DNA of 64,000 bases from Labrenzia sp. R4_2. Its GTDB lineage: Bacteria > Pseudomonadota > Alphaproteobacteria > Rhizobiales > Stappiaceae. The notes below the pieces were generated by a model that was not told the DNA's origin, ran no database searches, and worked only from the letters and a program-made list of their open reading frames with translations. This document shows, one piece after another, positions 48,701-64,000 of this stretch (position 1 is its first letter; every line of letters starts with the position of its first letter). The position numbers and the translations under genes were made by a program. Location of the stretch: assembly GCF_017743865.1 (NCBI RefSeq), contig NZ_JAGHRJ010000005.1:186001-250000 (forward strand), in the 5' to 3' direction.

Positions 48701-49927
48701 TTACGCGTTTTGCTTCCACTCGGACATGACCGGATCCAGGTTAAACAACTTTTGCGCGTTTCCACCCAGAATATTGCGTTTTGCCGCCTCATCCAGAAAG
48801 GGAATGTCATAGATGGTGCTGGGCAAATCCATATCCCAATGCGGATAGTCAGAGGAATACAGCAATTGTGTTTCCGCATTCATCATCTTGAATGTGACCT
48901 CGAGGGCCTCTTTGTTGTCCACGAGTTCGATGGGTTGTGAGGAATAGAACATCTCACGCATGTAATCGCTTGGCTTCTTCTTGAGGAGCGGCGCATCCGA
49001 TGTGCGCATCATGTATTCATTGTCCAATCTCTGCATAAGGAAAGGAATCCATGCAAGCCCGCTCTCAATCCACATGGTGTTCAGCTTAGGGAAGCGCTCA
49101 GGCATACCATTCAACACCCAGTTCGTCATGTGAATAATATTACAAAAACTGAACCCAAGAGCATGAACCGAGATGAACTTGTTGAGCTGAGCGAGAGATG
49201 TATCCGCCCAATGATAGGCCGCATGAAAACCGAGCGGCATACCGTGCTCTTCCAGCTTGGCATAGATACGCATATTCGCGTTGTCATGCACCGGGCGTTT
49301 CAAATAACCGGTTGACAGAAATCCTACGACTCCTTTCCGCTCGGTGAACTCGTCAATGATCTTTTCAGCTTCATGCGGTTCGTTCATTGGAAGGTAGACC
49401 ATCGAGACGATGCGTTTATCTTCCTCCAGGATACGCTCACAAAGCCAGCGGTTATAGGCGCGGGCCATCGCAACCTCGACTTCGACCTGCGGGTGGGTCG
49501 CAAGCAGCAACATCGGTGTTGGAAACAGGCAGGCCATATCGACCCCCATCGCATCCATCCAACGTCGCGCGAGGGTAATGTCGCGATGCGGCTTCTCGGG
49601 AACAATTTCCTTGTTACGCCCGGCATAGCGTGTCACGCGCCCCGCCATGTCCTGAGAGCCGATCGCTTGCGGGATCAGGCCTGCACGCCCCACATTTCCC
49701 GCGGACAGACCAAGGTGCCGCATGACAGGGTCGTCCATGTACTGCAGGATCTCGGGAAGAGCTTCCGTTTCATAGTGGTGGCTATCCACGTCACAAATGA
49801 AAAAATCTTTGTAATTCCGGTCCTCTGCTTGCTTTCTCGCATTTTTCAAAAGTTTGGTTGTATTGAACTCCTTGATCGCGGGGTCGCTATCCGAACCGAA
49901 GCTCATGGTATTCGATGTAAGAGACAT
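48701..49927 (-). CDS. Amidohydrolase-2 family protein (ACMSD/decarboxylase-like)
   Basis: This is a 408-residue TIM-barrel protein of the COG2159 amidohydrolase-related group, whose members include ACMSD, LigW and gamma-resorcylate decarboxylases. Metal-site elements are ICDVDSHHYE (residues ~43-52), LGFHAAYHW (~233-241), and YSSDYPHWD near the C-terminus (~365-373). GGGAG lies 9 nt before the ATG. It is the last gene of a minus-strand unit after the Rieske ferredoxin and a small unknown gene. It likely removes a carboxylate or hydrolyses an intermediate of the aromatic pathway; the exact reaction cannot be told. Confidence 0.88.
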   Translation of the reverse strand: MSLTSNTMSFGSDSDPAIKEFNTTKLLKNARKQAEDRNYKDFFICDVDSHHYETEALPEILQYMDDPVMRHLGLSAGNVGRAGLIPQAIGSQDMAGRVTRYAGRNKEIVPEKPHRDITLARRWMDAMGVDMACLFPTPMLLLATHPQVEVEVAMARAYNRWLCERILEEDKRIVSMVYLPMNEPHEAEKIIDEFTERKGVVGFLSTGYLKRPVHDNANMRIYAKLEEHGMPLGFHAAYHWADTSLAQLNKFISVHALGFSFCNIIHMTNWVLNGMPERFPKLNTMWIESGLAWIPFLMQRLDNEYMMRTSDAPLLKKKPSDYMREMFYSSQPIELVDNKEALEVTFKMMNAETQLLYSSDYPHWDMDLPSTIYDIPFLDEAAKRNILGGNAQKLFNLDPVMSEWKQNA

Positions 49928-49948
49928 ATTATCTCACTCCCATAAAAT

Positions 49949-50248
49949 TTATTGTTTCAGCGTCTGCCACATACCCAGCTCGAATACCGCCACATCGGCA
50001 GCCTCGAGAATTCCTGTCGCGGCAACCGCAACATCCGTCGCCGAAACGTCGTTGTTTTCCGGGAACGCAGAGAATTCCTTGTCATTTTCCCGCATTTTCG
50101 CAAACGCGGTCACGATTTCCGCAAATAGCGCCTGCAACTGCGCGGAGCTCAGTTGACTGGTTTCAAGCGCGCGAAGCGCGCCCAGGACTTCGTTGACCGA
50201 TACGTTCAGCGCCGGGGTTTCCGGTGTTACTTTTTCAAATCTCGACAT
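49949..50248 (-). CDS. Small helical protein of unknown function
   Basis: This is a 99-residue soluble, probably all-helical protein (EVLGALRALETSQLSSAQLQALFAEIVTAFAKMRE). GGAGGT lies 5 nt before the ATG, and its start overlaps the 3' end of the Rieske ferredoxin gene by 14 bp, so it is expressed with it. No family is recognised and no Cys, His cluster or transmembrane segment is present. It lies between a Rieske ferredoxin and an amidohydrolase, and might be a small structural or assembly partner of either. Confidence 0.72.
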   Translation of the reverse strand: MSRFEKVTPETPALNVSVNEVLGALRALETSQLSSAQLQALFAEIVTAFAKMRENDKEFSAFPENNDVSATDVAVAATGILEAADVAVFELGMWQTLKQ

Positions 50249-50600
50249 AGATACCTCCATCCCGTTCGGTCACTTTGTAGCGCTTAAGGCGAATTTTCGG
50301 ATCGCCTACCGCTTCCCCTGTTTCCATTTTGAACTCCCAGCCGTGCCAGGGGCATACGAAGTGCATCTCGCTATCGTCGAAGTTCTGCCTGAGAGCGCGT
50401 TGCTGGTCGTCAAACTCGACACATACCTTGGGCATTTTGAGCCCTTCGCAGACGGGGCCACCCTGATGCGGGCACACGTTTTTATATGCGACGACATTTC
50501 CTTTGTGGCGGATAACGCCGATCTCGACACCTTCGATCTCGCAGATCTTGGCGGTCGTGTCGTTGAGGTCCGACGATGCACACAACAGTTTTTCCGGCAT
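50235..50600 (-). CDS. Rieske [2Fe-2S] ferredoxin
   Basis: This is a 121-residue soluble Rieske protein of the dioxygenase-ferredoxin type. Cluster ligands are Cys43-x-His45 (NVCPHQGGPVCEG) and Cys83-x2-His86 (FVCPWHGWEF). The ribosome-binding site GGAGGAG precedes the ATG. It lacks a signal peptide or transmembrane helix. The oxygenase in this cluster already has a reductase with its own plant-type [2Fe-2S] domain, so a separate Rieske ferredoxin is unexpected. It is the first gene of its unit, divergent from a MarR gene. Confidence 0.92.
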   Translation of the reverse strand: MPEKLLCASSDLNDTTAKICEIEGVEIGVIRHKGNVVAYKNVCPHQGGPVCEGLKMPKVCVEFDDQQRALRQNFDDSEMHFVCPWHGWEFKMETGEAVGDPKIRLKRYKVTERDGGIYVEI

Positions 50601-50640
50601 TAAGAGCTCCTCCGTTTATTGCCAGGCTGCCTCACCAAAA

Positions 50641-50661
50641 ATAGTAAGATTGCCTTACTAT
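50641..50661. promoter_or_regulatory. Putative MarR operator
   Basis: ATAGTAAG and CTTACTAT form a perfect 8-bp inverted repeat with a 5-bp spacer. It lies in the divergent promoter region, 41 bp before the Rieske ferredoxin start and 110 bp before the MarR start. Confidence 0.65.
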
Positions 50662-50771
50662 AAGACGCATGCTACCATTGTCAATAATATAAGAACTCTA
50701 AGTTAAGGCTCCGCGACATCGACCAGGTTCAGTCCCCCTCCCGCAAACGCGGCCTCGGAGCATCGCTTCGT

Positions 50772-51158
50772 TTGGCCTATCATCTCTATGGCAAGCTGTT
50801 GCAGAAGCAGCTGATCGATTCGAAACTGAGCATGGCGCAGTACATTCATCTCAGAGTTCTGCGGGAAGAAACTTGCCTTACCCAATCCGAGCTTTCTGCG
50901 ATCCTGGGCATCGAAAAGGCTTCTTCGACGCGCGTTCTGGATGAACTTGACAAGAGAGATCTCTTGCTGCGCGAACGAAGTGCGAAAGATAGACGTGTCG
51001 TTGTCGTTCGCCTTTCGGATCAAGGCCGGGAGAAAATCGACCAGGTCATGAAATCCGCAAGGGTTGCGGCCGATCACGCATCGAAGGGCTTCGAAGAAGA
51101 GGAGCTTGCCCAGCTTTTCAAAGCAATGGACAAACTGATCGACAACCTCTCCTCGTGA
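50772..51158 (+). CDS. MarR family transcriptional regulator
   Basis: This is a winged-helix regulator of at least 128 residues: MAQYIHLRVLREETCLTQSELSAILGIEKASSTRVLDELDKRDLLLRERSAKDRRVVVVRLSDQG, with the wing motif DRR. The start is uncertain. TTG at 50772 has CGGAG 11 nt upstream. The open frame runs back to 50688 with a plausible family-like N-terminus (LRDIDQVQSPSRKRGLGASLRLAYHLYG) but contains no ATG or GTG. It is divergent from the Rieske ferredoxin unit and flanks a palindromic operator, so it likely regulates that unit and itself. Confidence 0.88.
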   Translation: MAYHLYGKLLQKQLIDSKLSMAQYIHLRVLREETCLTQSELSAILGIEKASSTRVLDELDKRDLLLRERSAKDRRVVVVRLSDQGREKIDQVMKSARVAADHASKGFEEEELAQLFKAMDKLIDNLSS

Positions 51159-51203
51159 TTGTCGTTGCCCCGATCCACAGGCAATTCAGGAACGCAAAAT
51201 ATA

Positions 51204-52130
51204 TTACGGGGCGACAGCCAATATTATCACGCCGGCTCCGGCCAGTATCGAAGCAAAGTAGAATCTGGAACCCGGCCGGTTCTCGGTTTTGAAAACGTGA
51301 CCGGCCAGCCAGGCTGCGAAGAACATCTCGACCGAAGAAATTATCGCGACCACCGTTACATTGGTGAACATCAACGAAAAGAACAATGCCACCTGACCCA
51401 GTGTCATCGAGCTGCCCGCAAGCAATTGCCAGCCGGTTGGCTTATGTATGCGCAACATGAATGTGGACCAATTGCGGAAACGAAAGCCCGCGGAGGCGCC
51501 AAAGCAAACCAATCCGGTCACCGCTCCGATAAAAACGCCTGCAAGCGGGTCCGGAAGCGTCTGCATTGCCAGTTTTCGAGCGACGAATGATCCTCCGTAA
51601 CCTGCTGCAGAGCTAAACGCCATTACACGCCCTTCGGTTTTTTCCTTGGTCGTGCGCTCTGGTACGGACCTGACGGCAGTCGGTCTTGAAGGAGTGTTCG
51701 CCATCATGATCAGAACGCCTCCTGTGACAAGGAGAAAGGCAATCACGATTGTCGATGTGATGATTTCGCCGAGCAGCAGAAACGCAAAGATCGCAGCGAA
51801 CACAGGGATCAGTCTCCGAATGAACCCTGTCTCAACCGCCCCGGCCAGCTCAACCGACCGGAAAAGAGTTAGCCGGCCCAGCACATTTCCCAGCAAGCCG
51901 GCAAGAACAAAATAGCCAACCCCGATGAGCGCCGCTTCTCCATAGGCTGGAAACGGCGACCCTATCGCCAGCCAAAGCAGGCCTGAAACCAGGGCCGTCA
52001 TCAGAACCGACAGAAACACGTCGTTTCCCCGGCCCTGAACGGACTGTGAGCTCTTGGCGATGGCAACGGAACTTAGCGCATAACAAAACGCCCCGAACGC
52101 GGCCAGCAAGCCGCCGAAACCAGCCGTCAT
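51204..52130 (-). CDS. EamA/DMT family transporter
   Basis: This is a 308-residue inner-membrane protein with ten predicted transmembrane helices in two EamA repeats (about residues 1-135 and 165-308). The first repeat ends LVTGGVLIMMA, the second LAGAGVIILAVA. Drug/metabolite transporters of this kind export small organic molecules; in this cluster it may export a pathway intermediate or import substrate. It is the last gene of the minus-strand catabolic unit, 27 nt after the gene upstream. The C-terminus is convergent with the MarR gene. Confidence 0.9.
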   Translation of the reverse strand: MTAGFGGLLAAFGAFCYALSSVAIAKSSQSVQGRGNDVFLSVLMTALVSGLLWLAIGSPFPAYGEAALIGVGYFVLAGLLGNVLGRLTLFRSVELAGAVETGFIRRLIPVFAAIFAFLLLGEIITSTIVIAFLLVTGGVLIMMANTPSRPTAVRSVPERTTKEKTEGRVMAFSSAAGYGGSFVARKLAMQTLPDPLAGVFIGAVTGLVCFGASAGFRFRNWSTFMLRIHKPTGWQLLAGSSMTLGQVALFFSLMFTNVTVVAIISSVEMFFAAWLAGHVFKTENRPGSRFYFASILAGAGVIILAVAP

Positions 52131-52157
52131 CGGCTATAGTCGGACCGGGTTTCGGAG

Positions 52158-52601
52158 TTACCTGGCATTTGTGACAAGTTGCTCCATGAAACGCTCGGAC
52201 GACATGATCTCACGCAACGGCAGGTTCTCCTGAGCTTCCATGAGATCCGATGAAAACGTCAAACCCCGTCCATCCCAGAACCACCAGTAGATGATTTCAC
52301 CCTTCTTTCCTCGAATGGGCATTCTAAAGATCGGAAATTTACGTTCGCTATGCGGGATTTCGGCATTGCCCACGCGAGAATGTTTCAACTCAAGCTTCTT
52401 CAGAACCGCCGACAATGGAACCATCGCCAAGGGTGCATTTTCGGCTGTCAGAACGGCGACATTCTCGGGCCGGCTCTCGTACGGACCCTTGAGAAACTTG
52501 ACCACCGGAGGATAGCTTGGATGGATGTGCGTTAGCTGAATGTAGGCCAAACCATTGGGCGTTTCGACCTCAACGATATCTCCAGGCAAATACTCTTCCA
52601 T
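52158..52601 (-). CDS. Unknown protein of the catabolic operon
   Basis: This is a 147-residue soluble protein. The N-terminal part (EEYLPGDIVEVETPNGLAYIQLTHIHPSYPPVVKFLKG) has the look of a small SH3-like beta-barrel, and the C-terminal part is aromatic-rich (IIYWWFWDGRGLTF). It has no Cys and no signal peptide. GGGAG precedes the ATG, and it follows the decarboxylase-like gene by 13 nt. The first part faintly resembles Imm26-type barrels, but I would not assign that. It may be an accessory of the pathway enzymes. Confidence 0.7.
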   Translation of the reverse strand: MEEYLPGDIVEVETPNGLAYIQLTHIHPSYPPVVKFLKGPYESRPENVAVLTAENAPLAMVPLSAVLKKLELKHSRVGNAEIPHSERKFPIFRMPIRGKKGEIIYWWFWDGRGLTFSSDLMEAQENLPLREIMSSERFMEQLVTNAR

Positions 52602-52614
52602 TTTGAAACTCCCG

Positions 52615-53607
52615 CTAAAGGCTGTAAGCTTCCAACGTCGAAGGATGAAACAGCTCCTCGATCTCGACCCGGCGTGGCGAAAGCCCTTGGCTTGCGTGAT
52701 AATCGAGAAACCGGTTCAGGACATGGGAGTTCTCGGCAACGCCGTAACTCCAGGGATCGTTCCCCATCAGGGTGTGAACGCGGTTCAGGTTATCCTCGAC
52801 GAACGGCATCGTAACTTTGGTCGCGGAGGTGTCCGAAAGCGCGTCTTCCGCCAGCCGCTTTGACTGGGTGAAAGCCTTGAGCAAGGCAGCCGGCAGGAAT
52901 GGATATTCCTCCGCCAAGCTTCGCCGTACTCCCAGAACATGCATGATCGGGAAGATCCGAGTACGTTGGAAATAGGCTTCAGCCGCGGAGATACTGTCGG
53001 AAAACAAGCGCCCGACATGTGGATGACCTTCGGAGAAGCAACGAGGCCATCGCGGCCCGACGAAACCGTCGATCTCGCCCGCCGCGAGCATGCCGTTCAA
53101 GGTGCTGCCCTCCGGCGCCTCCTCCATCACGATATCGTCCGGCAACTGAACCTTGATCTTCTCAGGCCGGCCGGGCGTGTCCATCCCGCCTCGCACCCAG
53201 ATGATATCGGACGGCTTCACGCCGTGTTCTTCTTCGAGAATACCACGCACCCACACATTGGCGGAAAGCTGGTATTCGGCAATGCCAATGCGCTTCCCCT
53301 TCAGGTCACCGGGCTTTTCTATACCCTTGTCCGTCCGGATATAAACCGACGTGTGCCGGAAGGCACGGCTCAGGAAAACAGGGATCGCAACATAATGCGG
53401 ATCGCCCCTGGCAACGGAGATCGAATAGGACGACAGCGAAAGCTCGCTGATATCGAACGCATGATGCCGGAAGGCACGGAAGAACATCTCCTCCGGCGAC
53501 AGCAGCATCGGAATGGGGTCGACCCCGTCGATTTGCACTCGGCCATCCACGATCGCACGCGTCCGGTCATAGTTTCCCATTGCAAGAGAAAGTTTCAGAT
53601 TGCTCAT
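52615..53607 (-). CDS. 4,5-Dihydroxyphthalate decarboxylase-like protein
   Basis: This is a 330-residue protein of the Pht5 family, which uses a periplasmic-binding-protein fold but is cytoplasmic. Seen are LSLAMGNYDRTRAIVDGRVQIDGVDP (residues ~5-30), EMFFRAFRHHAFDISELSLSSY (~39-60), IGIAEYQLSANVWVRG (~106-121) and the C-terminal DPWSYGVAENSHVLNRFLDYHASQGLSPRRV, all characteristic. There is no signal peptide, which argues against an ABC solute-binding role. Pht5 converts 4,5-dihydroxyphthalate to protocatechuate. The start overlaps the dehydrogenase stop by ATGA. Confidence 0.88.
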   Translation of the reverse strand: MSNLKLSLAMGNYDRTRAIVDGRVQIDGVDPIPMLLSPEEMFFRAFRHHAFDISELSLSSYSISVARGDPHYVAIPVFLSRAFRHTSVYIRTDKGIEKPGDLKGKRIGIAEYQLSANVWVRGILEEEHGVKPSDIIWVRGGMDTPGRPEKIKVQLPDDIVMEEAPEGSTLNGMLAAGEIDGFVGPRWPRCFSEGHPHVGRLFSDSISAAEAYFQRTRIFPIMHVLGVRRSLAEEYPFLPAALLKAFTQSKRLAEDALSDTSATKVTMPFVEDNLNRVHTLMGNDPWSYGVAENSHVLNRFLDYHASQGLSPRRVEIEELFHPSTLEAYSL

Positions 53608-54791
53608 CCTGTCGGCTTTCGATGTTTTGTGTTGCGTTGATGCTGAAGTTCGACCGGCTGGCCGGATCTGGCAGAGCGTAGAATTGCATGGCAAACCTCA
53701 AGGCTCGCCAATCCCCACTCCCCGCTCTGGACGGGGGGGGCATCCTCTCGAACTGCCGCGACCAGCGCATCAATGACCGTTCTGCGCGGAGCAGGACCGA
53801 ATTGCGCTTCAATGAAGCTACGCCTGGTATCGCCAAAGACCTCGATACCGTCCGGCATCAGTTTAAGATCCGCTCGATCGCAAAGGGCGATCACCGGACC
53901 GAAATGTTCGTTGTGTTTGGCTTGGATCGTCGTTCCATTGCCAAAAGTTCGGGTCGTCTTAAGGCGAACCTCGTCTTCTGGCGTAAGGTCCATCAGGGCT
54001 CGGCGCGCCCCTCCATATGATCCGGGGGTCTTGGGTTGCCCCAACTCACCGACATTATTCATCCAGATATCGCTGTCGAAATGGGCATAACCTGAATAGG
54101 TCAAATTGGCGATGCAACCTGTCTCGAAGGTCATGAGCGCGCTGAACGCGCCTTCGGTCGGTCGCTTGGAATCCCAAGCTCCGGTCATTGCATAGATCTT
54201 TTCGGCTATCCCGCCAGCCAGTCTCCGGACGACATCGATTTGGTGAATTGCCTGACTGAAGAGAACGCCTCCCCCCTCTTCCGTGCGCAGTTCTTCAGGT
54301 CGTCGCGGCCGATAGAGAAAATCGGTATAGTTCAGCGCCTGGATCATACGCAGTCGACCAAATTCACCGCTTTCAATCAGCTGCGCGGCAAGCTCAACAG
54401 GAGGGTCGAAACTGTGACTGGGACCAACGATCAAATGCACACCTGCCTTGCGCGTGGCGGTTATCATTTTTTCGGCATCTGCCATGGAGATCGCCAACGG
54501 TTTTTCGACAAGAACATGCTTACCGGCACTCGCCGCCGCCAGGACATGGTCCACATGCATCTGATGAGGGGTGGCGATGTAAATCGCTTCGACAGACGGA
54601 TCGGCGCATAACGCTTCAACGGTCTCATAACTCTTGCCGCCATATTCTGTTTCGAAGGCGGCACGGCTTTGCTCTCTGGGAGCGGCGGCAGCGATGAGCT
54701 TTACACGGGAATCGACATCGAACGTCGGCACCATGAGCATGAACGCACGCCCAAGGCCAGCGACGCCGAGGCGAACCGGATCACAGGTCAA
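53604..54791 (-). CDS. Gfo/Idh/MocA dehydrogenase (phthalate dihydrodiol DH-like)
   Basis: This is a 395-residue NAD(P)-dependent oxidoreductase. The Rossmann motif is LGVAGLGRAFMLMVP (residues ~7-21) and the family EKP motif is VLVEKPLAIS (~93-102). The GGVLFSQAIHQIDVVRRL segment bears the catalytic His region. It resembles Pht4, cis-4,5-dihydroxy-4,5-dihydrophthalate dehydrogenase. The start codon is TTG at 54791, chosen because GGGGAGG lies 7 nt upstream; it overlaps the reductase gene by 11 bp. Its place next to the Pht5-like gene matches phthalate operons. Confidence 0.92.
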   Translation of the reverse strand: MTCDPVRLGVAGLGRAFMLMVPTFDVDSRVKLIAAAAPREQSRAAFETEYGGKSYETVEALCADPSVEAIYIATPHQMHVDHVLAAASAGKHVLVEKPLAISMADAEKMITATRKAGVHLIVGPSHSFDPPVELAAQLIESGEFGRLRMIQALNYTDFLYRPRRPEELRTEEGGGVLFSQAIHQIDVVRRLAGGIAEKIYAMTGAWDSKRPTEGAFSALMTFETGCIANLTYSGYAHFDSDIWMNNVGELGQPKTPGSYGGARRALMDLTPEDEVRLKTTRTFGNGTTIQAKHNEHFGPVIALCDRADLKLMPDGIEVFGDTRRSFIEAQFGPAPRRTVIDALVAAVREDAPPVQSGEWGLASLEVCHAILRSARSGQPVELQHQRNTKHRKPTG

Positions 54792-55719
54792 GAACCAGCC
54801 TCCCCGATTTCGCCCGCGACACGCAGATCATGATGTAATCGCCTTTTTCCTCGTCCATCAAAACCATGTCGCGATGATCGGCTTCCCCCACCAGGAGACG
54901 GGTCTTGCACGTTCCACATGTTCCGCTTTCACATGAACTGCTCGTCGCAAAACCGGCATCCCGAAGCGCTTCCAAGATTGAGCGATCTTTAGGAACGGTG
55001 ACTGTTTCCCCGCTCTTTTTCAGTTCCACTTCGAAGGCGACGTCGTCCTGACGCACCACATCGACCGGTTTAAAGTCCTCAAAATGGATCCGCCCCTCCG
55101 GCCAATGGCCGGAAACTGCCTTGATCTCGTCCATTAAAGGCTTTGGTCCACAGCAAAAGACATGTGTTGCTCTTGGCGTGACTAGATCGTCCCAGAAATC
55201 ATAAACCGCGTCAGGATCGCCGTTGTCATGATGAACTATGATCCTGCCCTCGAAGGCTTCGTTCAGCTCCGCAAGATAGGCAGCCTCTTCTGCGCTTCGA
55301 GTGACGTATATGATGCGTAGCGCTTTGCCTTTTTTGTCGAGATATCGCGCCATGGAATAAATCGGCGTAATACCAATGCCGCCTGCTATCAGTAGATACT
55401 TCTGAACATCCGTCAGGGGGAAATCGTTCTCCGGCGGCTCAATATTCAGCTCGGAACCAACATGCGCATCGTCATGCATCGACGCGGATCCGCCTCGAGA
55501 TTGCGGCTCACGTTTGATGGCAACGACGTATTCAGTCGGCTCGAAACCGTCGTTCACGAGCGAGTAACGGCGCATGGCACCTGACGGCGTTTCGACTGTG
55601 ATATGCGCACCTGGATCGAAACTGGGAAGCTTACAGTCGCCGACCGGAACCAACGTGAATTCCACGATGCTCGGTGTCAAAACGATTCTACTTGCGACTC
55701 GCATTCTCATTTGCTGCAT
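54781..55719 (-). CDS. Phthalate-dioxygenase-type reductase (FMN, [2Fe-2S])
   Basis: This is a 312-residue class IA reductase: FMN-binding domain (RRYSLVND, residues ~50-57), NADH domain (LIAGGIGITPIYSMARYL and VFCCGPKPLMDEI), and a C-terminal plant-type [2Fe-2S] with ligands Cys263, Cys268, Cys271 and Cys299. This order (FMN-NADH-2Fe2S) is that of phthalate dioxygenase reductase and VanB. It passes electrons from NADH straight to the oxygenase gene product encoded upstream. GGGAGGA precedes the ATG. A CTTAG-N4-CTAAG-type site lies 33 bp before its start. Confidence 0.95.
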   Translation of the reverse strand: MQQMRMRVASRIVLTPSIVEFTLVPVGDCKLPSFDPGAHITVETPSGAMRRYSLVNDGFEPTEYVVAIKREPQSRGGSASMHDDAHVGSELNIEPPENDFPLTDVQKYLLIAGGIGITPIYSMARYLDKKGKALRIIYVTRSAEEAAYLAELNEAFEGRIIVHHDNGDPDAVYDFWDDLVTPRATHVFCCGPKPLMDEIKAVSGHWPEGRIHFEDFKPVDVVRQDDVAFEVELKKSGETVTVPKDRSILEALRDAGFATSSSCESGTCGTCKTRLLVGEADHRDMVLMDEEKGDYIMICVSRAKSGRLVLDL

Positions 55720-55751
55720 GAATTCCTCCCAGTCGGATCGCGATAGAATTT

Positions 55752-55765
55752 ATTAGATAGCTAAG
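55752..55765. promoter_or_regulatory. Shared catabolic operator, copy 1
   Basis: ATTAG-ATAG-CTAAG differs by one base from the CTTAG-N4-CTAAG palindromes at 58503 and 62590. It lies 33-46 bp before the reductase start. Confidence 0.6.
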
Positions 55766-55831
55766 TTATTGAAGTCAACCGCTTGGCAATCTGCTGAAAC
55801 GTTACGTATTTTCCGTGGCCTAACGAGTTGC

Positions 55832-57004
55832 TTAAGTATTCCGTCCAGGCAGTGCCGCGGCGTTTCTTCTACCCGCGATATGATGCTGTCCGAGCTGTTG
55901 AACCGATTTGCAGCCAATGAAAATCAGTGTTCTGCGCACTTCGTCCTCCAGTATCGACAGGGCTTGCGCCGCCCCATCGCGGCCACCGGCCGCCAGGCCG
56001 TATAATGTCGCCCGGCCGAGAAGTACGCCGTGTGCCCCCAAAGCAAGCGCCTTTACGATATCGCTGCCCCGCCGAATGCCGCCGTCCAGCAGAACGGTTG
56101 CATCGCGGTCTAGTTGTCCGGCAATGTCCTCAATGACTTCGATGGTCGCGGGCGCACCATCGAGTTGGCGACCCCCGTGATTTGACACGATGACTCCATC
56201 AGCGCCCTCCTTGCAGGCGCGTAACGCGTCCTCCCCGCACATTATGCCTTTGATCAGCAGCGGTCCGTTCCATTGTTTGCGAATACGCCGAACATCGTCC
56301 CAGGAAAAATGAGGATTCCGTTGGGAACGGGTGAAATCCGCCAGCGCTGCGTCGCTTACCCCCTCCCCCAGGAACGCCACAAGATTCTGTAATCGTGGCC
56401 TGTTTCTGCCAAGCCAAACCGAACCCAGCCATCTAGGATGCATCAGCCCGTCCAGGATTACGGGAGCGCTCATTTTGATTTCATGTGAGAAACCGTGCCG
56501 TAAATCACGCTCGCGTTTTCCCCCAACCAAAGAGTCGACCGTGACAATCAGCGCCGCATAGCCGGCATTGGCGGCACGCTCTATGAGCGCCTCGGAAAAG
56601 CCCGGTTTTCCCCACGGATAAAGCTGGAACCAAAGAGGACTATCCGTTTGTTGTGCAATCGCTTCCATTGATGTGTTGGACGCCGTGGAAACCGCGAAAC
56701 CGACACCCGCACCTTGGGCGGCACTTGCCAGATGCAAATCCCCTTTCGGCCAATAGATCCCGTTCAAACCCGTCGGGCCAATAATGAAAGGTGCAGAGAA
56801 TTTTTGGCCAAATAGATTGACCGAAAGATCGACCATGCCACCGTTAAGAATTTTGGGTCTTAACTGAATATCCTCATATGCCTGCCTGTTTCTCTGCAGA
56901 GTAACTTCGTCTTCAGCCCCGCCGTCAAGAAAATCGAACACCACCCGTGGCAAGCGAATGCGGGCCAATCGTCGCAAGTCGTCAATGTTGATGGGTTGGC
57001 TCAT
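55832..57004 (-). CDS. FMN-dependent alpha-hydroxy-acid oxidase/dehydrogenase
   Basis: This is a 390-residue TIM-barrel flavoenzyme of the LldD/mandelate dehydrogenase/glycolate oxidase family. Characteristic parts are FDFLDGGAEDEVTLQRNR (residues ~24-41), PFIIGPTGLNGIYWPKGDLHLASAA, QLYPWGKPG, and the catalytic SNHGGRQLDGAP with base His (~273). FMN phosphate-binding DGGIRRGSDIVKALALGA follows. It oxidises a 2-hydroxy acid to the 2-oxo acid. Its place between oxygenase and reductase genes is unusual for phthalate operons and suggests an extra side-chain oxidation step. The start at 57004 is the first reasonable Met. Confidence 0.93.
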   Translation of the reverse strand: MSQPINIDDLRRLARIRLPRVVFDFLDGGAEDEVTLQRNRQAYEDIQLRPKILNGGMVDLSVNLFGQKFSAPFIIGPTGLNGIYWPKGDLHLASAAQGAGVGFAVSTASNTSMEAIAQQTDSPLWFQLYPWGKPGFSEALIERAANAGYAALIVTVDSLVGGKRERDLRHGFSHEIKMSAPVILDGLMHPRWLGSVWLGRNRPRLQNLVAFLGEGVSDAALADFTRSQRNPHFSWDDVRRIRKQWNGPLLIKGIMCGEDALRACKEGADGVIVSNHGGRQLDGAPATIEVIEDIAGQLDRDATVLLDGGIRRGSDIVKALALGAHGVLLGRATLYGLAAGGRDGAAQALSILEDEVRRTLIFIGCKSVQQLGQHHIAGRRNAAALPGRNT

Positions 57005-57151
57005 CTTACTTGCCGATTTGCTTTGCCACAGCCCGCGACACCCCAAGATTACACCCTTGCAGCGACGACACATCGCCCCCTCCGCTCACGAAAGAACCAC
57101 CCAAGACCGCGTGCGGCCTCAGGCGGATCCGGGAGGAAATTTCAGCAGAAC

Positions 57152-58432
57152 CTATTCTGCAGCGACTGTTTTTCCCGAAGTGTTGAGAAGTGTTCGCCAG
57201 TCGGTTTCTTTCGGGTAAACCCCCTCGTGGGAGTTGATCAAAACCTGCGGGATCTCGGAATCCGTTCCGATTGCCTGACCACCTTCGGCTACTTTTTTAG
57301 CCGCATCCGCCATCAGGCGGCGGAATTCGACAATGGCCAGGTCTGACGCACCGAGGACATCGGTGTGGCGCTGGACGCGCGCGCCCATCGACACCCACAT
57401 CGCAATATCCTGGTTGGGAATGCCCTTGATACCAGTAAAATTGCCTTCCTTCATCGCATCACGATCCTGAAGGAAATCGTTGTCCAAGGTGCGCAGGCAA
57501 CGCCATTTGTCATCGACATCCACACCCGGCACCGCATGCGTGAACCGGCGCCACTCGTCCGTTGTCGGGACGTTCGGCCCATCCCAAGCAATGAAGTGGA
57601 AAGCGGTTTCCTCATCATTGATTGGCACAATCACCGCGGCCACCCTGTAATTGTTGTTGGGCGGTATCAGCGAGTAGTAGGGCGCAACGAATTCGGTAAC
57701 CCGAATGTAATTGTGCGTAGCCGCGTTCTTGATGGGAGTACGGATCGCGGCATAGTGAAACCCATAACTTGTCGTTTCCGTTTGCATGCGAGGCGATTTG
57801 TCGGTCGAGGGCCGATACCATGACTTTTCGTCCGCCGCCGCACCTTCGACTTTGGCTGGAACCATGTCAGATGAATGCAGCGAAGACGAGTGCGCGCTGT
57901 CGATCTGGCCTTCGTGGATCTGCGCCCAATTCGCGGGGATTCGGATCTTTAGGATTGCGATCGGAGAATCCGCGCGCGGTGCAAATGCCGGCGGTTGAAA
58001 CTCCGGCATTTCGTCTTTGTCGCCAAGCCAAGCCCAGACGAAACCGCCCCACTCGCGAACGGGGTAGGAACGGTGCTTCACCTTGTCCATCAGAGGACTG
58101 CCTTCCGGCTCCGACGACATAGCGACAACGTTGCCGTCAACGTCCATTTTCCAGCCATGATAGAGGCAGCGAAGCCCGCATTCCTCATTTCGGCCAAAGA
58201 CCAGCGAAGCCTTGCGGTGCGGGCAAAGCTCATCCAACAGGCCCAAGCGCCCCTTTGAATCGCGAAATGCCACATAGCTTTCGCCGAGAACTTCAACGCG
58301 AAGCGGCTTGCCGTCCGGCTCTTCCACCTCTTCGATCAGGCAAACAGGAGTCCAATGCTGACGCATCAGCCGCGCCATCGGGGCGTCGCCGGTCACACGG
58401 GTCAGCAGTTCATTCTCTTCGGGTGTAAGCAT
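57152..58432 (-). CDS. Rieske non-haem iron oxygenase, phthalate 4,5-dioxygenase-like
   Basis: This is a 426-residue terminal oxygenase. The Rieske domain has Cys70-x-His72 and Cys89-x2-His92 (CPHR...CLYHGW). The mononuclear Fe site is Asp178, His181 and His186 in EGQIDSAHSSSLH. Size and the IPANWAQIHEGQIDSAHSS segment fit the phthalate 4,5-dioxygenase/OhpA-type homotrimeric alpha-only branch. GGGAG lies 6 nt before the ATG at 58432. The substrate is inferred to be a carboxylated aromatic. The operator CTTAG-CTTT-CTAAG is 71-84 bp upstream. Confidence 0.94.
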   Translation of the reverse strand: MLTPEENELLTRVTGDAPMARLMRQHWTPVCLIEEVEEPDGKPLRVEVLGESYVAFRDSKGRLGLLDELCPHRKASLVFGRNEECGLRCLYHGWKMDVDGNVVAMSSEPEGSPLMDKVKHRSYPVREWGGFVWAWLGDKDEMPEFQPPAFAPRADSPIAILKIRIPANWAQIHEGQIDSAHSSSLHSSDMVPAKVEGAAADEKSWYRPSTDKSPRMQTETTSYGFHYAAIRTPIKNAATHNYIRVTEFVAPYYSLIPPNNNYRVAAVIVPINDEETAFHFIAWDGPNVPTTDEWRRFTHAVPGVDVDDKWRCLRTLDNDFLQDRDAMKEGNFTGIKGIPNQDIAMWVSMGARVQRHTDVLGASDLAIVEFRRLMADAAKKVAEGGQAIGTDSEIPQVLINSHEGVYPKETDWRTLLNTSGKTVAAE

Positions 58433-58779
58433 TTGATCTCCCTCCTCCACGGACCGCCACGTTAAAAAACACCATCGGGCGGCTTATGGCTTCTCCAGTA
58501 TTCTTAGCTTTCTAAGTTTAAGCTGTCAACTGGAGGGCAGAATTTTTTCGCCTGCTATTGCAGGATCCCGAAACCCTGACTTCGGAGTTTCCCGCTGCCG
58601 TGAAATCCGGCCTCCCCTCGTCCAACGCGAAGGCCGCACAACGGCTGTTGTTGGAGATGAAAACTCTATGAATTCAGAGCATCGTGCGATGCTTTTATGG
58701 GAGGTTCCGGCAACTGACCTAAGCGTGAAAGGTTCATGGCCGATGCACGATCTATTTGCGCCTTTTGAGAAAAATCTTG
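58433..58779. other. Promoter gap upstream of oxygenase gene
   Basis: It contains the shared operator (58503-58516) and a GCATCG-TG-CGATGC palindrome (58679-58692), part of a 15-mer also present at 47431. No gene is seen. Confidence 0.45.
58503..58516. promoter_or_regulatory. Shared catabolic operator, copy 2
   Basis: CTTAG-CTTT-CTAAG, a perfect 5-bp half-site palindrome, lies 71-84 bp before the oxygenase start. Confidence 0.65.
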
Positions 58780-59334
58780 CTAGAGTTCCAACCACGAATG
58801 CATTTTTCTCATGAGCAACGGCATTACGTAACGCGTATTCAAACCTGTCAGAACGAATGCCACCAAAAACAAAGAAATCGGTGCAGATACGTTTTCGGTT
58901 AGCGGCTTTAACGCGTGGTATATTATGATCAGCAACGGATAGACACCTAGCATACTGACCACCCAGCGTTTCCAAAAAAGCGGTTGCTTTTGCACATCCT
59001 CAATCGGCTCGTTGACGACAGCGTCGCAGCGAATCTTTGCGGAAGAATTGCTCAGTTGGTGTCGGAGTTCTCGACCGATGTAGCCGGGCAAATCCCGACC
59101 ATCTGATTTGAGCTGGCTGACGTCGAAACTCAAGGAAAATAAAACTTCGCCACCATGGGCGCTTCGCATTTGCCCGCTGCTCTCCGCGTTCCTGTCCGCA
59201 GAAACGATATCGACGGTTAAATCATGAATAGCTTGCGTTACGCGCGTCAGATCTTCCGGCAGAGCTGTAATTGTAAGTATCAAGCCCGACCCGTTGCCTA
59301 CCGGTGCCGGTTGACCTGCCTGAATTTTTGACAT
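58780..59334 (-). CDS. Antibiotic-biosynthesis-monooxygenase-like membrane protein
   Basis: This is a 184-residue protein. The N-terminal ~105 residues form a soluble domain with no clear catalytic motif. The C-terminal part has FWKRWVVSMLGVYPLLIIIYHALKPL and SLFLVAFVLTGLNTRYVMPLLMRKMHSWL, the two-helix membrane tail found in ABM-superfamily membrane proteins (COG3224 type). The start at 59334 has GGGTGG 7 nt upstream. It lies 126 nt after the TRAP permease gene on the same strand. The assignment rests mainly on the tail; function is unknown. Confidence 0.65.
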   Translation of the reverse strand: MSKIQAGQPAPVGNGSGLILTITALPEDLTRVTQAIHDLTVDIVSADRNAESSGQMRSAHGGEVLFSLSFDVSQLKSDGRDLPGYIGRELRHQLSNSSAKIRCDAVVNEPIEDVQKQPLFWKRWVVSMLGVYPLLIIIYHALKPLTENVSAPISLFLVAFVLTGLNTRYVMPLLMRKMHSWLEL

Positions 59335-59459
59335 GTGTAGACCACCCGTTGGTATCAGCAAGTCCAATCAAGCGGTCGAACTGATCGTAATTCTTCAAAA
59401 CGCAGGTGCCGTCCGGTCGAGTGAATGTTTTCCATATTCCATTCGCACGTCGACCGGGA

Positions 59460-61364
59460 CTAAGGATTTTCGACGTTTCTCACCCTCGCAGAAAACACGA
59501 ACTGTCGTACGATCAACCCGGCAATCAGCAAGATGCACAAGCCGGATACGACGGGATAAGGGCTTACAGCCCCCACCGCCGCAACCGTTAGAAGGACTCT
59601 TTCCCAGGTGAGCAGTTCGGTCTTGATCAATCCCTCTATCGAGGCTGCGATGGCGAACGCGCCGAAGAACGCCCCGACCACTGCGAGAGTGTTTGCCAAA
59701 GGCCCGAGCTCCAGAAGTATTCCCGGATTCCAGACGAAGGCGAAAGGTAACAAAAATCCAACGATTGCAAGCCTTACGGCCGAGAAGGCAATTTTGAAGG
59801 GATCCTCGTCGGCGATCGCAGACGCGGCAATGGCTGCAACAGCGATCGGAGGAGTTAGTGCAGACAAGATCGCATAGTAGAGCAAGAACATTTGGCTCGG
59901 AAGGATCGGGAAGCCGAGCTTGGATAGCGCCGGTCCCACGAGCACGGCCGCCAGAATATAGGCGCTCGGGGTCGGCATCCCCAGACCGAGAACGATCGTG
60001 ACGGTTGCGGCAATCACGAGCGTCAGTATTGGCTGCGCATCGCTAACGGTTAGAATCACATTCGCTGATTTCATCCCAAGGCCGGTCATGGACAATCCGC
60101 CAATAACCAGGCCCGCAGCAGCACATGCACCGGCAACCGGCAAGATCTGCAGAGTGGTTGTTCCAAGACCTTCCACGATTTGCCAAGGCGAAAGCCGCGT
60201 TTCTTTCAGGATCAATGAAGCGACAATCGTGACAAGGACGCCGACACCAGCCGTAAACGTCGGTGAATAACCGAGTATCAGCGCAACGATAATACCGATG
60301 ATAGGCAGCAAAAAGACCCAGCCGGTTTTGAACGTTTCCGTAGCGGTCGGAACCTCGTCTTCCGACGGCCGCAGGTCGTATTTGACCGAGCGCAAGTGCA
60401 CCTGGGCGAAAACGCCGGTATAATAAAGCAAAGCTGGTATCAGGGCCGCGAGCACAATCGAGTTATAGGAAATCCCCGAGTATTCGGCCATGATGAACGC
60501 CGCTGACCCCATGATCGGGGGCATCGCGCTACCACCGGTGGATGCTGCGACCTCCACCGCTCCTGCAAATCGGGCGCGATATCCAAGCCGTTTCATCACA
60601 GGGATAGTGATCGAACCGGTTGCGACGACATCGGAAGTGGGGCTGCCGGACATCGTTCCATATAATCCAGACGAGATGATCGCGATCTTGGCAGGTCCTC
60701 CTCTTGCGCGCCCGGTGACCAGAGCCGCAAGGTTAAAGAAGAAATCGCCGCCTCCTGCCTTTGACAGAAATGTTCCGAACATCACGAAAAGGAAAACGTA
60801 GCTCGCCACCACCTGAATCGGAACGCCAAACAAGCCGTCGGTCGTAAAAACGAGGATATCGAGCAGATATGTAAACTCACTAACCCGATGACCGAACGGA
60901 GGTGGCAGCAGATAGCCAAAAAGATTGTAGAACAGAAAGAGCAAGACAACCCCGGTGAGCCCCAAGCCGGTAGTACGCCGGGTCGCTTCGAGCGTCAGAA
61001 ACAGGAGCGAGGAACCGAAGAACAACTGATCAATCGTGAACTCATCCAGAATGCTTATCCGGTTCGCTATCGCTCCCGAAGTCATGAAGAAATAGACGCC
61101 GCAAGCAAGACTGAGAGCCGCTAGAATCCAGTCGTAGAAAGGAATCCGGTCCGGCGCTCTGGAGGTCGCTCCAATCGCCAGAAAAAGAATGGTGAATATC
61201 CCCGAAATAAAGAGAATACCCTGAATAAGCGGGTCAGCGATAATGAACAGATTTGAATGAACTACCCATATGGCGAAGGCCGCCGACAGTACCTTGACAA
61301 CGGTACTCATGGTAGGCGCGAGTTTTCTACGGCGGCCTGTTTCAGTCAGCGAAGGGAAGTCCAT
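59460..61364 (-). CDS. TRAP transporter fused permease (DctQM, TAXI type)
   Basis: This is a 634-residue membrane protein with about 17-18 helices, combining the small DctQ-like N-terminal part and the large DctM-like part. DctM hallmarks are GGGDFFFNLAALVTGRARGGPAKIAIISSGLYGTMSGSPTSDVVATGSITIPVMKRLGY and AAVEVAASTGGSAMPPIMGSAAFIMAEYSG. It uses a Na+ gradient to import an organic acid delivered by the TAXI binding protein upstream. Fused permeases of this length pair with TAXI-type proteins. The start ATG at 61364 is the outermost; MSTVVKV at 61310 is an alternative. Confidence 0.94.
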   Translation of the reverse strand: MDFPSLTETGRRRKLAPTMSTVVKVLSAAFAIWVVHSNLFIIADPLIQGILFISGIFTILFLAIGATSRAPDRIPFYDWILAALSLACGVYFFMTSGAIANRISILDEFTIDQLFFGSSLLFLTLEATRRTTGLGLTGVVLLFLFYNLFGYLLPPPFGHRVSEFTYLLDILVFTTDGLFGVPIQVVASYVFLFVMFGTFLSKAGGGDFFFNLAALVTGRARGGPAKIAIISSGLYGTMSGSPTSDVVATGSITIPVMKRLGYRARFAGAVEVAASTGGSAMPPIMGSAAFIMAEYSGISYNSIVLAALIPALLYYTGVFAQVHLRSVKYDLRPSEDEVPTATETFKTGWVFLLPIIGIIVALILGYSPTFTAGVGVLVTIVASLILKETRLSPWQIVEGLGTTTLQILPVAGACAAAGLVIGGLSMTGLGMKSANVILTVSDAQPILTLVIAATVTIVLGLGMPTPSAYILAAVLVGPALSKLGFPILPSQMFLLYYAILSALTPPIAVAAIAASAIADEDPFKIAFSAVRLAIVGFLLPFAFVWNPGILLELGPLANTLAVVGAFFGAFAIAASIEGLIKTELLTWERVLLTVAAVGAVSPYPVVSGLCILLIAGLIVRQFVFSARVRNVENP

Positions 61365-61523
61365 GCCTACACCGTTTCACGTTTGTTGTTTGAAAGTAAA
61401 TTGCCTGCACTGAACGTGCCTTGCCTGTGTTTACACATGCAAAGTCCGCAGCAATGCACTTGGCAGCAGTATGCAGCCAGCGCGCTGTTGCTTTTGCGGG
61501 CCGGCTGCATTGTCTGAAAGGTG

Positions 61524-62513
61524 TTACTTAATAAGACCCAATTCCATGTAAGCGCGCTTTGCACCGGCATGGAACGGAAGTGTGGTCTGAGAAACAAGCA
61601 GTTCTGGCGTCAACTGCTTCATCGCGTTGTGCACACCGCGAATTTCATCGATGTTTTCTGCGATATCTTTTGCGAGCATATAGCCGGTTTCTTCGGGCAG
61701 GCTCTCGGTCGTGATCACCATTGCACCCAGCGCGACCGTAACAACGTCATCAGATTGGTTGGCGTAACTTTCGCCGGGAATTGTATAGGTTCCCGTTCCA
61801 AATTTTGCGTTCGTCTTCTCAATGATTTCCTGGGGAACACTCAGAAGTACAACTTCATTACTTTTGTCAACTTTCCGGAACGACGAATGTCCCACAAAGA
61901 TGCCGTTAATAACCATGTCGGTCCGACCGTCGGTTATCAGGTCCGCTTGCTGTGCAGAGCCGCCCCGAACCAGAACTCCGCCGTTCGCTTCGATAGTAGC
62001 CTCATCATAGCCGGCTTCTTCGAGCATGAACGTCGTGATATTGGCCACGATGTTGCCCGCATTGTTGTTCGCGACGCGTATAGCCGCACCTGATTTCGCC
62101 AGATCGTCAATACTGTCGATCCCGTATTCATCGGCAATGGATTTTCTAAGAAAAAAATGCATCGGCGCCCAATTGTACATATACCCGATGGCCTGAATAT
62201 TGTTGATGGGTGCCTTGAACGGCTCTTCCCCGGCGAGCGCCAACTTGATCTCGGCGTCGTGGGCCAAACCTAAGTCCGTCCGACCTGCGCCCAGCAAAGC
62301 AATGTTTGCAAACCCGCCTCCGGTTGCTTGGTATGTAACGACACCACTGGGATCGTCAGCCTTAACTGCTCGGTCAATGCCAGCACCAAGCAGAGACCAA
62401 AGACCGGACGGGTTTCCTCCCGAAAGTGTGACGGTGACGCTTTCCGCAACTGCGCTGCCTGCAATTGCACACATTCCGATGGCCGCAATAACGGCTTTAA
62501 AACTCTTTTTCAC
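61524..62513 (-). CDS. TAXI family TRAP solute-binding protein
   Basis: This is a 329-residue periplasmic protein. The start is GTG at 62513, with GGGAGGA 5 nt upstream, giving a clean signal peptide (KKSFKAVIAAIGMCAIAGSAVA). Mature features are the TAXI-type VTVTLSGGNPSGLWSLLGAGIDRAV opening and VVTYQATGGGFANIALLGAGRTDLGL, with LVRGGSAQQADLITDGRTDMVI in the second lobe. It binds the substrate for the fused permease encoded 159 nt downstream. Two palindromes lie upstream (62535-62562 and 62590-62603). Confidence 0.93.
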   Translation of the reverse strand: MKKSFKAVIAAIGMCAIAGSAVAESVTVTLSGGNPSGLWSLLGAGIDRAVKADDPSGVVTYQATGGGFANIALLGAGRTDLGLAHDAEIKLALAGEEPFKAPINNIQAIGYMYNWAPMHFFLRKSIADEYGIDSIDDLAKSGAAIRVANNNAGNIVANITTFMLEEAGYDEATIEANGGVLVRGGSAQQADLITDGRTDMVINGIFVGHSSFRKVDKSNEVVLLSVPQEIIEKTNAKFGTGTYTIPGESYANQSDDVVTVALGAMVITTESLPEETGYMLAKDIAENIDEIRGVHNAMKQLTPELLVSQTTLPFHAGAKRAYMELGLIK

Positions 62514-62534
62514 AGGTTCCTCCCTCTCCATCCT

Positions 62535-62562
62535 CATAGACATCTAATGTTAGATATCTATG
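62535..62562. promoter_or_regulatory. 28-bp imperfect palindrome before TAXI gene
   Basis: CATAGA and TCTATG half-sites bound an inner ATCTAATGTTAGAT palindrome. The outer parts match the palindrome at 46158 upstream of the universal stress gene. It lies 22-49 bp before the TAXI start. Confidence 0.6.
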
Positions 62563-62583: not shown

Positions 62584-62609
62584 CCTGATCTTAGTCAACT
62601 AAGATCAGG
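62584..62609. promoter_or_regulatory. Shared catabolic operator, copy 3, in 11-bp inverted repeat
   Basis: CTTAG-TCAA-CTAAG (62590-62603) is the centre of a perfect 11-bp inverted repeat with a 4-bp spacer. It lies 77-90 bp before the TAXI start. A short T-run follows on the plus strand, but no plus-strand gene precedes it, so an operator is likelier than a terminator. Confidence 0.62.
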
Positions 62610-62689: not shown

Positions 62690-62986
62690 GCGGAGCGGCT
62701 TTCGGTCCGCCCCCGCCGCGGTATCGCTCTGAAGATCGAGGCGCCGTGTCTTCGAGGAAAACTTCCGCGTCTATGGTACGCGCAAGATCCGGCGGCAATT
62801 GCAGCGGGAGGGCTTCGATATCGCCCGTTTCACGTGGCCAGGCTTATGAGGGTCATGGGGCTTCAGGGGAACATTCGGGGCAAGCGGCTCAAAACGACGT
62901 TTCCGGACAAGTCCGCGCCAAACCCGCTCGACCGTATGAACCGCCCGTTCGACAATGCTGTCGGCTCACTGGCCTACGATGGCTAA
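62690..62986 (+). pseudogene. IS3 family OrfB transposase, frameshifted remnant
   Basis: The plus strand reads VFEENFRVYGTRKIRRQLQR and continues EGFDIARFT in one frame. After a shift near 62840 it reads LMRVMGLQGNIRGKRLKTTF and DKSAPNPLDRMNRPFDNA to a stop at 62986. These are consecutive parts of the HTH_21/OrfB region of IS3-family (IS407-like) transposases. The start, the DDE core and the 3' half are missing. It separates the catabolic cluster from the following MarR gene. Confidence 0.78.
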
Positions 62987-63687: not shown

Positions 63688-64000
63688 TCAACCCTCCTGC
63701 ATGTTCGCCAACCGCTCTCTCCAAGCAGGTTCGACTTCGAGATTGCGGGTGTATTTCGGCAGATCGCCATCCATGAGGCGGGTGGCGTTTTCCACCAGAA
63801 CCTCCGGCATGATCGAATAAAGATCGATCGTATGACCCAGGATGTGCGGCGTAAGGACGACACGATCAAGCCCGCGCAGCGGGTGATCCGCCGGTAGCGG
63901 TTCGGTCTCAGTCACATCGAGGCCAACTCCCGAAAGATGACCTTCGGACATGACCTCGACCAAAGCGTCTTCGTCGATCAGTCCGCCACGGGATGTGTTC
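63688..64000 (-). CDS. D-2-hydroxyacid dehydrogenase, C-terminal part
   Basis: The gene runs off the right edge; the last 103 residues are visible and the start lies outside. NTSRGGLIDEDALVEVMSEG, GVGLDVTETEPLP and the catalytic-His segment LTPHILGHT are characteristic of NAD-dependent D-isomer specific 2-hydroxyacid dehydrogenases (PF02826/PF00389). The Glu of the relay is in TETEP. It may act with the catabolic genes or on a related 2-hydroxy acid. It lies 186 nt upstream of the MarR gene in the same orientation. Confidence 0.92.
   Translation of the reverse strand, partial: NTSRGGLIDEDALVEVMSEGHLSGVGLDVTETEPLPADHPLRGLDRVVLTPHILGHTIDLYSIMPEVLVENATRLMDGDLPKYTRNLEVEPAWRERLANMQEG

Follow-up and report, generated by a model that had tools for sequence, protein, structure and literature searches.

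A phthalate catabolic cluster of Labrenzia sp. R4_2 with a putative amidohydrolase-related dinuclear oxygenase

Amidohydrolase-related dinuclear oxygenases (AROs) include the proteins of PDB entries 8SM6-8SM9, and a neighbouring small Rieske protein has been used to find such enzymes (PMC10811679). In AibH2, the ligands are Asp25, His27, His211, Glu265, Asp337 and His340, and the acid at position 342, within a D-x-x-H-x-D motif, is described as conserved in binuclear members only and absent in AibH1 (PMC7782822). We report here a likely ARO encoded at positions 48701..49927 of a 64,000-nucleotide stretch of the 5.66 Mb genome of Labrenzia sp. R4_2 (contig NZ_JAGHRJ010000005.1, G000:C22:186001-250000, hereafter 'the window'), where it stands at one end of a cluster of phthalate catabolic genes.

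The other described systems closest to this locus are the mandelate pathway, whose enzymes are named MdlB, MdlC and MdlD, and the 4,5-pathway of phthalate. The substrate pocket of the phthalate dioxygenase PDO includes residues S182, R207, I256, F280 and F339 (PMC10511449, PMC12445004). A separate dehydrogenase and decarboxylase are given as the mark of the ortho route in PMC13040137, which also cites a TAXI-TRAP importer for ortho-phthalate already reported in denitrifying bacteria (Sanz et al.).

On balance, and with a slight preference only, we read this cluster from its sequences as a phthalate 4,5-pathway joined to a peripheral ARO module that would produce phthalate from a side-chain homologue. 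The extra enzymes that a first-pass annotation saw beside the phthalate genes are indeed there, and every gene it listed is an open frame on the minus strand, as are all genes given below with window coordinates (ORF list, Pfam and NCBIfam scans) save one divergent regulator. Other genomes and plasmids share the arrangement, which is therefore not due to chance. Related loci were taken as the best 80 of 472 Pht3 relatives, with Pht3 identities of 66-100% and several contigs ending short; the closest named cluster relative is that of Stappia sp. MMSF_3263 (L004; Pht3 identity 100%), and a further named carrier is Pelagimonas phthalicica DSM 26923.

The phthalate core and the probable oxygenase operon

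Pht3 (57152..58450), the oxygenase component of phthalate 4,5-dioxygenase, matches PDO of Comamonas testosteroni KF-1 (7fjl, 7v25 and 7v28) with 597.6 bits over 414 residues and, by a hand count on the alignment, keeps S182, R207, I256 and F280 of its pocket. Pht4 (53604..54791) scores 416.9 bits with 7wzd, named 4,5-dihydroxyphthalate dehydrogenase, and Pht5 (52615..53607), the 4,5-dihydroxyphthalate decarboxylase, 429.8 bits with 9jp7. A Pht2-like FMN/[2Fe-2S] reductase of the PDR/VanB type (54781..55719) is assigned by Pfam and by the annotation of homologous clusters. Among the related loci, Pht4 is present in 76/80, Pht5 in 73/80 and the reductase in 66/80. Since Pht3, Pht4 and Pht5 match solved 4,5-pathway proteins at 417-598 bits, we predict an ortho-phthalate 4,5-pathway, with phthalate as a firm intermediate, at a high level of confidence; the Pht3/Pht2/Pht4/Pht5-type route of the first-pass annotation is thereby upheld. 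Terephthalate or isophthalate as main substrate was rejected in view of the separate dehydrogenase and decarboxylase, on the rule given in PMC13040137.

Compared with the KF-1 pathway and the proteins 7wzd and 9jp7, the three core enzymes and most PDO pocket residues are alike. The locus differs in having Ile in place of F339 and in its added genes: a TAXI-TRAP importer, a 147-residue protein (s147), an EamA-family transporter, an FMN-dependent 2-hydroxyacid oxidase or dehydrogenase (FMN_dh), a D-2-hydroxyacid dehydrogenase (HADH), a thiamine diphosphate (ThDP) enzyme, an aldehyde dehydrogenase (AldDH) and a trio formed by a Rieske ferredoxin (RFd), a small protein (s103) and the ARO.

Ring-cleavage genes, which the same annotation declared absent, are missing inside the window only. 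A pcaQ-like gene, pcaD, pcaH and pcaG lie on the same contig, 13.5-17 kb past the window edge, at L121:15543-19031 (pcaH and pcaG at L121:17686-19031; L121 is contig 248001-268000, and adding 62000 gives the window coordinate). PcaD, PcaH and PcaG score above the curated NCBIfam cut-offs, and the PcaQ-like LysR protein reaches 280 of 303.8 bits.

The first-pass annotation also listed an 'amidohydrolase-type decarboxylase', a protein of 408 amino acids with a PF04909 (Amidohydro_2) domain. Its five best PDB entries are five AROs, ahead of any decarboxylase: 8sm7 (122 bits), 8sm6 (SfbO, 110), 8sm9 (107), 6m1w (AibH1H2, 86) and 8sm8 (about 82). Pairing by motif and HMMER alignments places D48, H50, H235, E288, D360, H363 and second-sphere D365 opposite AibH2 D25/H27/H211/E265/D337/H340/D342, the HMMER alignment to AibH2 itself starting past the first two ligands. 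In an alignment of 59 rows (the window protein and 58 open frames from 53 loci, 55 distinct; L012 and L014 left out), all seven positions are kept in 58-59 rows, D365 in 58/59. The acid of the D-x-x-H-x-D motif, whose absence marks mononuclear PF04909 proteins, is thus present as D365. Because the five best PDB entries are AROs, the ligand set is kept and a Rieske ferredoxin lies in the operon, the gene very likely encodes an ARO of the AibH2/SfbO kind; its ligands and partner gene are those of dinuclear oxygenases, not those of decarboxylases.

With the known AROs (AibH1H2/AibG/AibF of Rhodococcus, SfbO, the orphans 8sm7, 8sm8 and 8sm9, and PtmU3) the window protein shares PF04909, the dinuclear ligands and the operon Rieske ferredoxin. 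By its sequence it belongs to a remote ARO clade, at 81-122 bits from its five closest solved relatives, and its context, unlike theirs, points to an aromatic substrate. Also, in contrast to AibH1H2, the operon has a single Amidohydro_2 gene and no AibH1-like second subunit; two tandem AROs are found in some relatives (L129-L132, L140).

RFd (50235..50600; PF00355), s103 (49949..50260, or from an alternative ATG at 50248; probably helical) and ARO are closely packed on the same strand, the RFd frame overlapping s103. The ferredoxin motif CxH...CxxH is present in 50/50 rows. While the 'separate Rieske ferredoxin' is extra to the phthalate genes, as the first-pass annotation had it, it shares an operon with s103 and ARO and is likely the electron donor of the latter. 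The trio recurs in other Alphaproteobacteria at 48-60% ARO identity. One contig of Maritimibacter alkaliphilus HTCC2654 has two phthalate clusters (L009 and L062), of which one includes the trio and the other lacks it, a pair suited to comparing what the trio does.

A profile search located s103 beside 52 of the 58 ARO genes of the clade (47 of 53 loci) and at none of the 70 Pht3 loci that lack ARO; beyond the ARO set it hit only L012 and L014, and both of these loci bear ARO. The six clade loci without s103 include L146-L148, where FMN_dh lies 0.1 kb from ARO. A partner of about 100 amino acids sets this clade apart from other AROs, the profile having found none at the seven more distant ARO loci searched. 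The AlphaFold2 model of s103 (pLDDT 58.3) is too poor for use; a role of s103 in coupling RFd to ARO, or in stabilising ARO, is speculative.

Upstream of RFd is a sigma-70-like promoter, TTGACA-16-TATAGT (50657..50684, minus strand), with 11/12 consensus matches, the best of 13 between 48600 and 63600, where shuffles average 9.1. TTGACA is common to all 12 aligned sequences, the independent locus L159 included. A candidate operator, ATAGTAAG-GCAAT-CTTACTAT (50641..50661, minus strand), overlaps the -10 box. With up to three mismatches allowed, the palindrome ATAGTAAG-N5-CTTACTAT matches the window here alone and gives no site in 100 shuffles, and no further copy was found in the window or L121. 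Its core, GTAAG-N5-CTTAC, is kept in the window and in 10 related loci, with diverging flanks; L159 has a different repeat at roughly the same promoter position. A MarR-family regulator gene (50772..51158, plus strand; PF01047), divergent from the ARO operon and in the same position in 10 related ARO loci, would control the operon through this site. As the regulator gene splits RFd, s103 and ARO from the phthalate genes, the cluster probably comprises at least two transcription units.

Distantly related ARO-RFd pairs occur in haloarchaea. One of them, on a Haloarcula plasmid (L170:7688-13120), has genes for a fused TRAP permease and for an aldehyde dehydrogenase beside it, and s103 was not found there. 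At L127:10258-11574 (G060:C14), a gene of the Nramp family begins two bases after the ARO gene, with FMN_dh 2 kb off. The Nramp family comprises Mn/Fe importers, and this neighbour would fit a Mn/Fe cofactor.

Possible mandelate-type genes and their distribution

FMN_dh (55832..57004; PF01070), between Pht3 and the reductase, has the (S)-mandelate dehydrogenase 6bfg as its best PDB match (332.6 bits), followed by L-lactate oxidase (305); its start at 57004 was chosen over 57073 by comparison with relatives. Further upstream, the genome encodes a 2-hydroxyacid dehydrogenase, a ThDP enzyme, NadC and an aldehyde dehydrogenase, and the same four genes are upstream in the inspected plasmid clusters of Phaeobacter, Salipiger and Thioclava. 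The first of these, HADH (PF02826), is partial at 63688..64000 and runs past the window edge (full gene L121:1688-2731). At E<=1e-20 the ThDP enzyme has 33 PDB hits, every one a benzoylformate decarboxylase entry and most of them variants of one enzyme, and it contains NPGS and HE motifs, which we take to be typical of benzoylformate decarboxylase.

From these matches, a mandelate-type funnel beside the phthalate genes seems reasonably probable. It would resemble the mandelate pathway in that a single cluster encodes an FMN hydroxyacid dehydrogenase, a benzoylformate-decarboxylase-like ThDP enzyme and an aldehyde dehydrogenase, but differ in its D-2-hydroxyacid dehydrogenase, its entry through ARO and its product, phthalate instead of benzoate. 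Annotation shows no mandelate racemase in three homologous clusters (L114, L119 and L120), whose gene table has gaps, and no search for one extended to the remainder of our own genome. The first-pass guess that the substrate may be a phthalate-like acid bearing a hydroxyacid side chain agrees with the mandelate-type oxidase, the 2-hydroxyacid dehydrogenase and the benzoylformate-decarboxylase-like enzyme.

How are these genes distributed among phthalate clusters? ARO occurs in 10/80 loci and FMN_dh in 15/80 (67-99% identity in these 15 named loci), and all 10 ARO loci have FMN_dh. HADH, at 60% identity or more, is found in 12 of the 15 FMN_dh loci, the contigs of the other three ending short, and in 0/65 of the remaining loci. 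The ThDP enzyme occurs in 36/80 loci: 12 of the 15 FMN_dh loci and 24 more, 21 of which also have AldDH. Gene content thus nests, ARO within FMN_dh/HADH, these within ThDP and all within the phthalate loci, in the order of the proposed steps, which is suggestive.

ARO also appears in independent contexts. In genome G459, L159 has the order RFd-s103-ARO-AldDH-SBP-ThDP with a diverging MarR gene and adjacent pca genes, and L160/L173 combine the trio with divergent Pht3 (58%), Pht4 (54%) and Pht5 (59%), AldDH and ThDP. Sinorhizobium (L118) has ARO-AldDH-TctC-ThDP, Neorhizobium (L168/L169) ARO-ThDP-2-hydroxyacid dehydrogenase, and Aminobacter (L116) AldDH-ARO-s103-RFd with genes for 4-hydroxybenzoate-3-monooxygenase and a ThDP enzyme.

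ARO was found in 21/385 genomes of the class at E<=1e-30 and in 7/397 of the order at E<=1e-80, our own genome being in both. A placement test was run on 29 ARO loci of 18 other genomes, with tandem AROs merged and positions entered by hand; congeners (G378, G300, G382, G288), genomes whose AROs are all distant (G361, G113, G122, G306) and, in G205, a second and distant ARO were left out. FMN_dh lies within 10 kb of 5/29 ARO loci versus 0.36 expected under random placement (p ~2.5e-5) and the benzoylformate-decarboxylase-like ThDP gene within 10 kb of 4/29 versus 0.20 (p ~2e-5), in a test that assumes independent genes and uses families picked after the window was seen. As a check on general clustering of catabolic genes, we took 54 ring-hydroxylating-oxygenase loci from the same 18 genomes (positions again entered by hand), where FMN_dh is within 10 kb in 0/54 and the ThDP gene in 1/54; the one-sided Fisher P-values for ARO versus control loci are 0.004 and 0.048, respectively.

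Proposed route and rival explanations

In the proposed route, the TAXI-TRAP system would import aryl diacids, and electrons would pass from NADH through the reductase and RFd to ARO. By analogy with AibH2 and SfbO, ARO, with an Fe2 or Mn/Fe site and s103 as partner, would activate O2 and hydroxylate the alpha (benzylic) carbon of an arylacetate. FMN_dh and the D-2-hydroxyacid dehydrogenase might then oxidise one hydroxyacid enantiomer each; judging by their families, the benzoylformate-decarboxylase-like ThDP enzyme would strip CO2 and the aldehyde dehydrogenase would yield phthalate. The last stretch, from phthalate through Pht3 with its reductase, Pht4 and Pht5 to protocatechuate, is strongly predicted by homology, with PcaGH cleavage to follow from genes outside the window.

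Our best guess for the substrate, reached by reasoning and rather doubtful, is homophthalate (2-carboxyphenylacetate), which would be converted through 2-carboxymandelate, phthalonate and 2-formylbenzoate to phthalate. The reason for this choice is that a sequence of alpha-hydroxylation, oxidation, decarboxylation and aldehyde oxidation would shorten homophthalate by exactly one carbon and leave phthalate. More generally, and still tentatively, the ARO clade may be a family of arylacetate alpha-hydroxylases made of three proteins (dinuclear metal barrel, RFd and s103) that convert arylacetates to mandelates. In the literature searched, which covered few subscription journals, no ARO was reported to act on arylacetates. 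If the clade does act in this way, arylacetates could reach benzoates by an O2-dependent route that does not involve CoA; homophthalate would yield phthalate here, and elsewhere among bacteria hydroxylated phenylacetates would probably yield protocatechuate. Benzylic hydroxylation of arylacetates would join a metal-oxygenase family that databases name amidohydrolases, and phthalate catabolism would gain a new entry, also present on marine bacterial plasmids. For one ARO, the cluster supplies a candidate pathway, a concrete candidate substrate, a new partner protein and a promoter that is likely to be regulated.

Several observations weigh against this proposal. None of the funnel genes reaches its curated NCBIfam cut-off: the best model for FMN_dh is L-lactate dehydrogenase (323 of 376 bits), the ThDP enzyme scores 133 of 493 as benzoylformate decarboxylase and 219 of 456 as an unnamed ThDP protein, and AldDH and HADH fall short too. 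Nested clusters share ancestry, largely within one clade, and nesting is no independent statistical test; ThDP with AldDH also occurs in 21 phthalate clusters that have neither ARO nor FMN_dh, and is hence not specific to ARO. The ThDP enzymes of Neorhizobium and Aminobacter are of a different family (PRK08266), and at L159, L160 and L118 reference searches found neither FMN_dh nor a 2-hydroxyacid dehydrogenase in the neighbourhood of ARO. Within 10 kb, 24 of the 29 ARO loci lack FMN_dh and 25 the benzoylformate-decarboxylase-like gene; since most loci lack these neighbours, the clade is probably functionally mixed. PtmU3, a known ARO, matches the window protein at 43.9 bits, less than the 48.8 bits of 5-carboxyvanillate decarboxylase. 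Finally, PMC6498646 assigns homophthalate catabolism, in a passing remark, to the phenylacetate (paa) pathway, and our own genome has PaaA/PaaC-family genes on another contig; another homophthalate route is therefore possible.

Does the ARO operon make a phthalate precursor at all? It may instead be an oxygenase for another arylacetate or an aliphatic acid that merely lies beside the phthalate genes, the hydroxyacid oxidase, ThDP enzyme and AldDH serving compounds of the phthalonate or 2-formylbenzoate type, derived for instance from phenanthrene. The operon's own promoter and MarR regulator, with an operator-like palindrome repeated in neither the window nor L121, are in keeping with a separate role, as are the 21 ARO-less clusters with ThDP and AldDH, the many other contexts of the clade, the possible paa route of homophthalate and the report of 2-carboxybenzaldehyde as a phenanthrene product in a marine Roseobacter (PMC11705938). 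The trio, however, is again found with phthalate genes, AldDH and a benzoylformate-decarboxylase-like ThDP gene in the divergent loci of G459 (L160/L173), and FMN_dh is present in 10/10 ARO-bearing phthalate loci. We regard this separate role as possible but rather unlikely.

That the amidohydrolase is after all an ordinary metal-dependent decarboxylase of the gamma-resorcylate or 5-carboxyvanillate type, acting on a dicarboxylated aromatic, we hold to be very improbable. PF04909 is common to both kinds of enzyme, and the 5-carboxyvanillate decarboxylase match (E 4.6e-12) is slightly above that of PtmU3. Yet the acid of the D-x-x-H-x-D motif, restricted to binuclear members according to PMC7782822, is kept in 58/59 rows. 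Five other AROs score far higher, and a decarboxylase would leave the co-operonic Rieske ferredoxin unexplained; on these three grounds this candidate was rejected.

Still less credible is that RFd feeds Pht3 or another Rieske oxygenase instead of the amidohydrolase: Pht3 is within the same cluster and many ring-hydroxylating oxygenases use Rieske-protein ferredoxins, but Pht3-type oxygenases need a reductase alone, the cluster already encodes one, the RFd frame overlaps s103 beside ARO, and among the 80 Pht3 loci RFd was detected in the 10 ARO-bearing ones only, so that RFd was rejected as Pht3 donor.

Importer, accessory genes and spread of the cluster

The importer comprises a TAXI-family TRAP solute-binding protein (61524..62543; PF16868; TIGR02122, 133 bits, over cut-off) and a fused permease of the DctM type (59460..61364; TIGR02123, 564 bits, over cut-off). 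The first-pass inventory needs correction for the former, whose longest frame starts at 62543. One TAXI and one fused permease beside phthalate genes recall the ortho-phthalate importer of Sanz et al. (via PMC13040137). Here, unlike there, the pathway is the aerobic 4,5-pathway and a protein of about 185 amino acids (58780..59337) adjoins the permease. It has C-terminal hydrophobic segments (by eye) and no Pfam family over cut-off, its relatives lie near TRAP genes in many of the 80 loci, and it is possibly an accessory of the importer. A perfect palindrome with 11-base arms (62584-62609) precedes the TAXI gene by 40 bases; the palindrome core has an exact match in only 2/174 loci, L121 of this strain and L004 of a near twin. 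Beyond it lies a second MarR-family regulator gene (62983..63501; PF01047).

Between Pht5 and the divergent regulator are s147 (52158..52601) and the EamA-family transporter (51204..52130; PF00892). The former is conserved beside Pht5 in 58/80 related loci and matches no Pfam or NCBIfam family at E<=0.01. Its AlphaFold2 model is of high confidence (pLDDT 93.6); Foldseek found no PDB match at E<=0.001 (best E-value 0.13), and VIA-align gave only Z ~5 over 56-62 residues.

The ThDP gene and nadC are adjacent in the plasmid clusters and split apart in our genome, where a TRAP importer and hydantoinase A/B genes (by eye) lie between them (L121:4523-12512), together with a gene for an EutA/arylmalonate-decarboxylase-like protein that scores below curated cut-offs. 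In the Phaeobacter and Salipiger plasmids (L114, L119), the cluster is near Mu-type transposase, TniB and TniQ genes. The plasmid location, a transposase accession common to the two genera (WP_024099411.1) and the typing of one plasmid as conjugative suggest that the phthalate/ARO cluster has spread recently.

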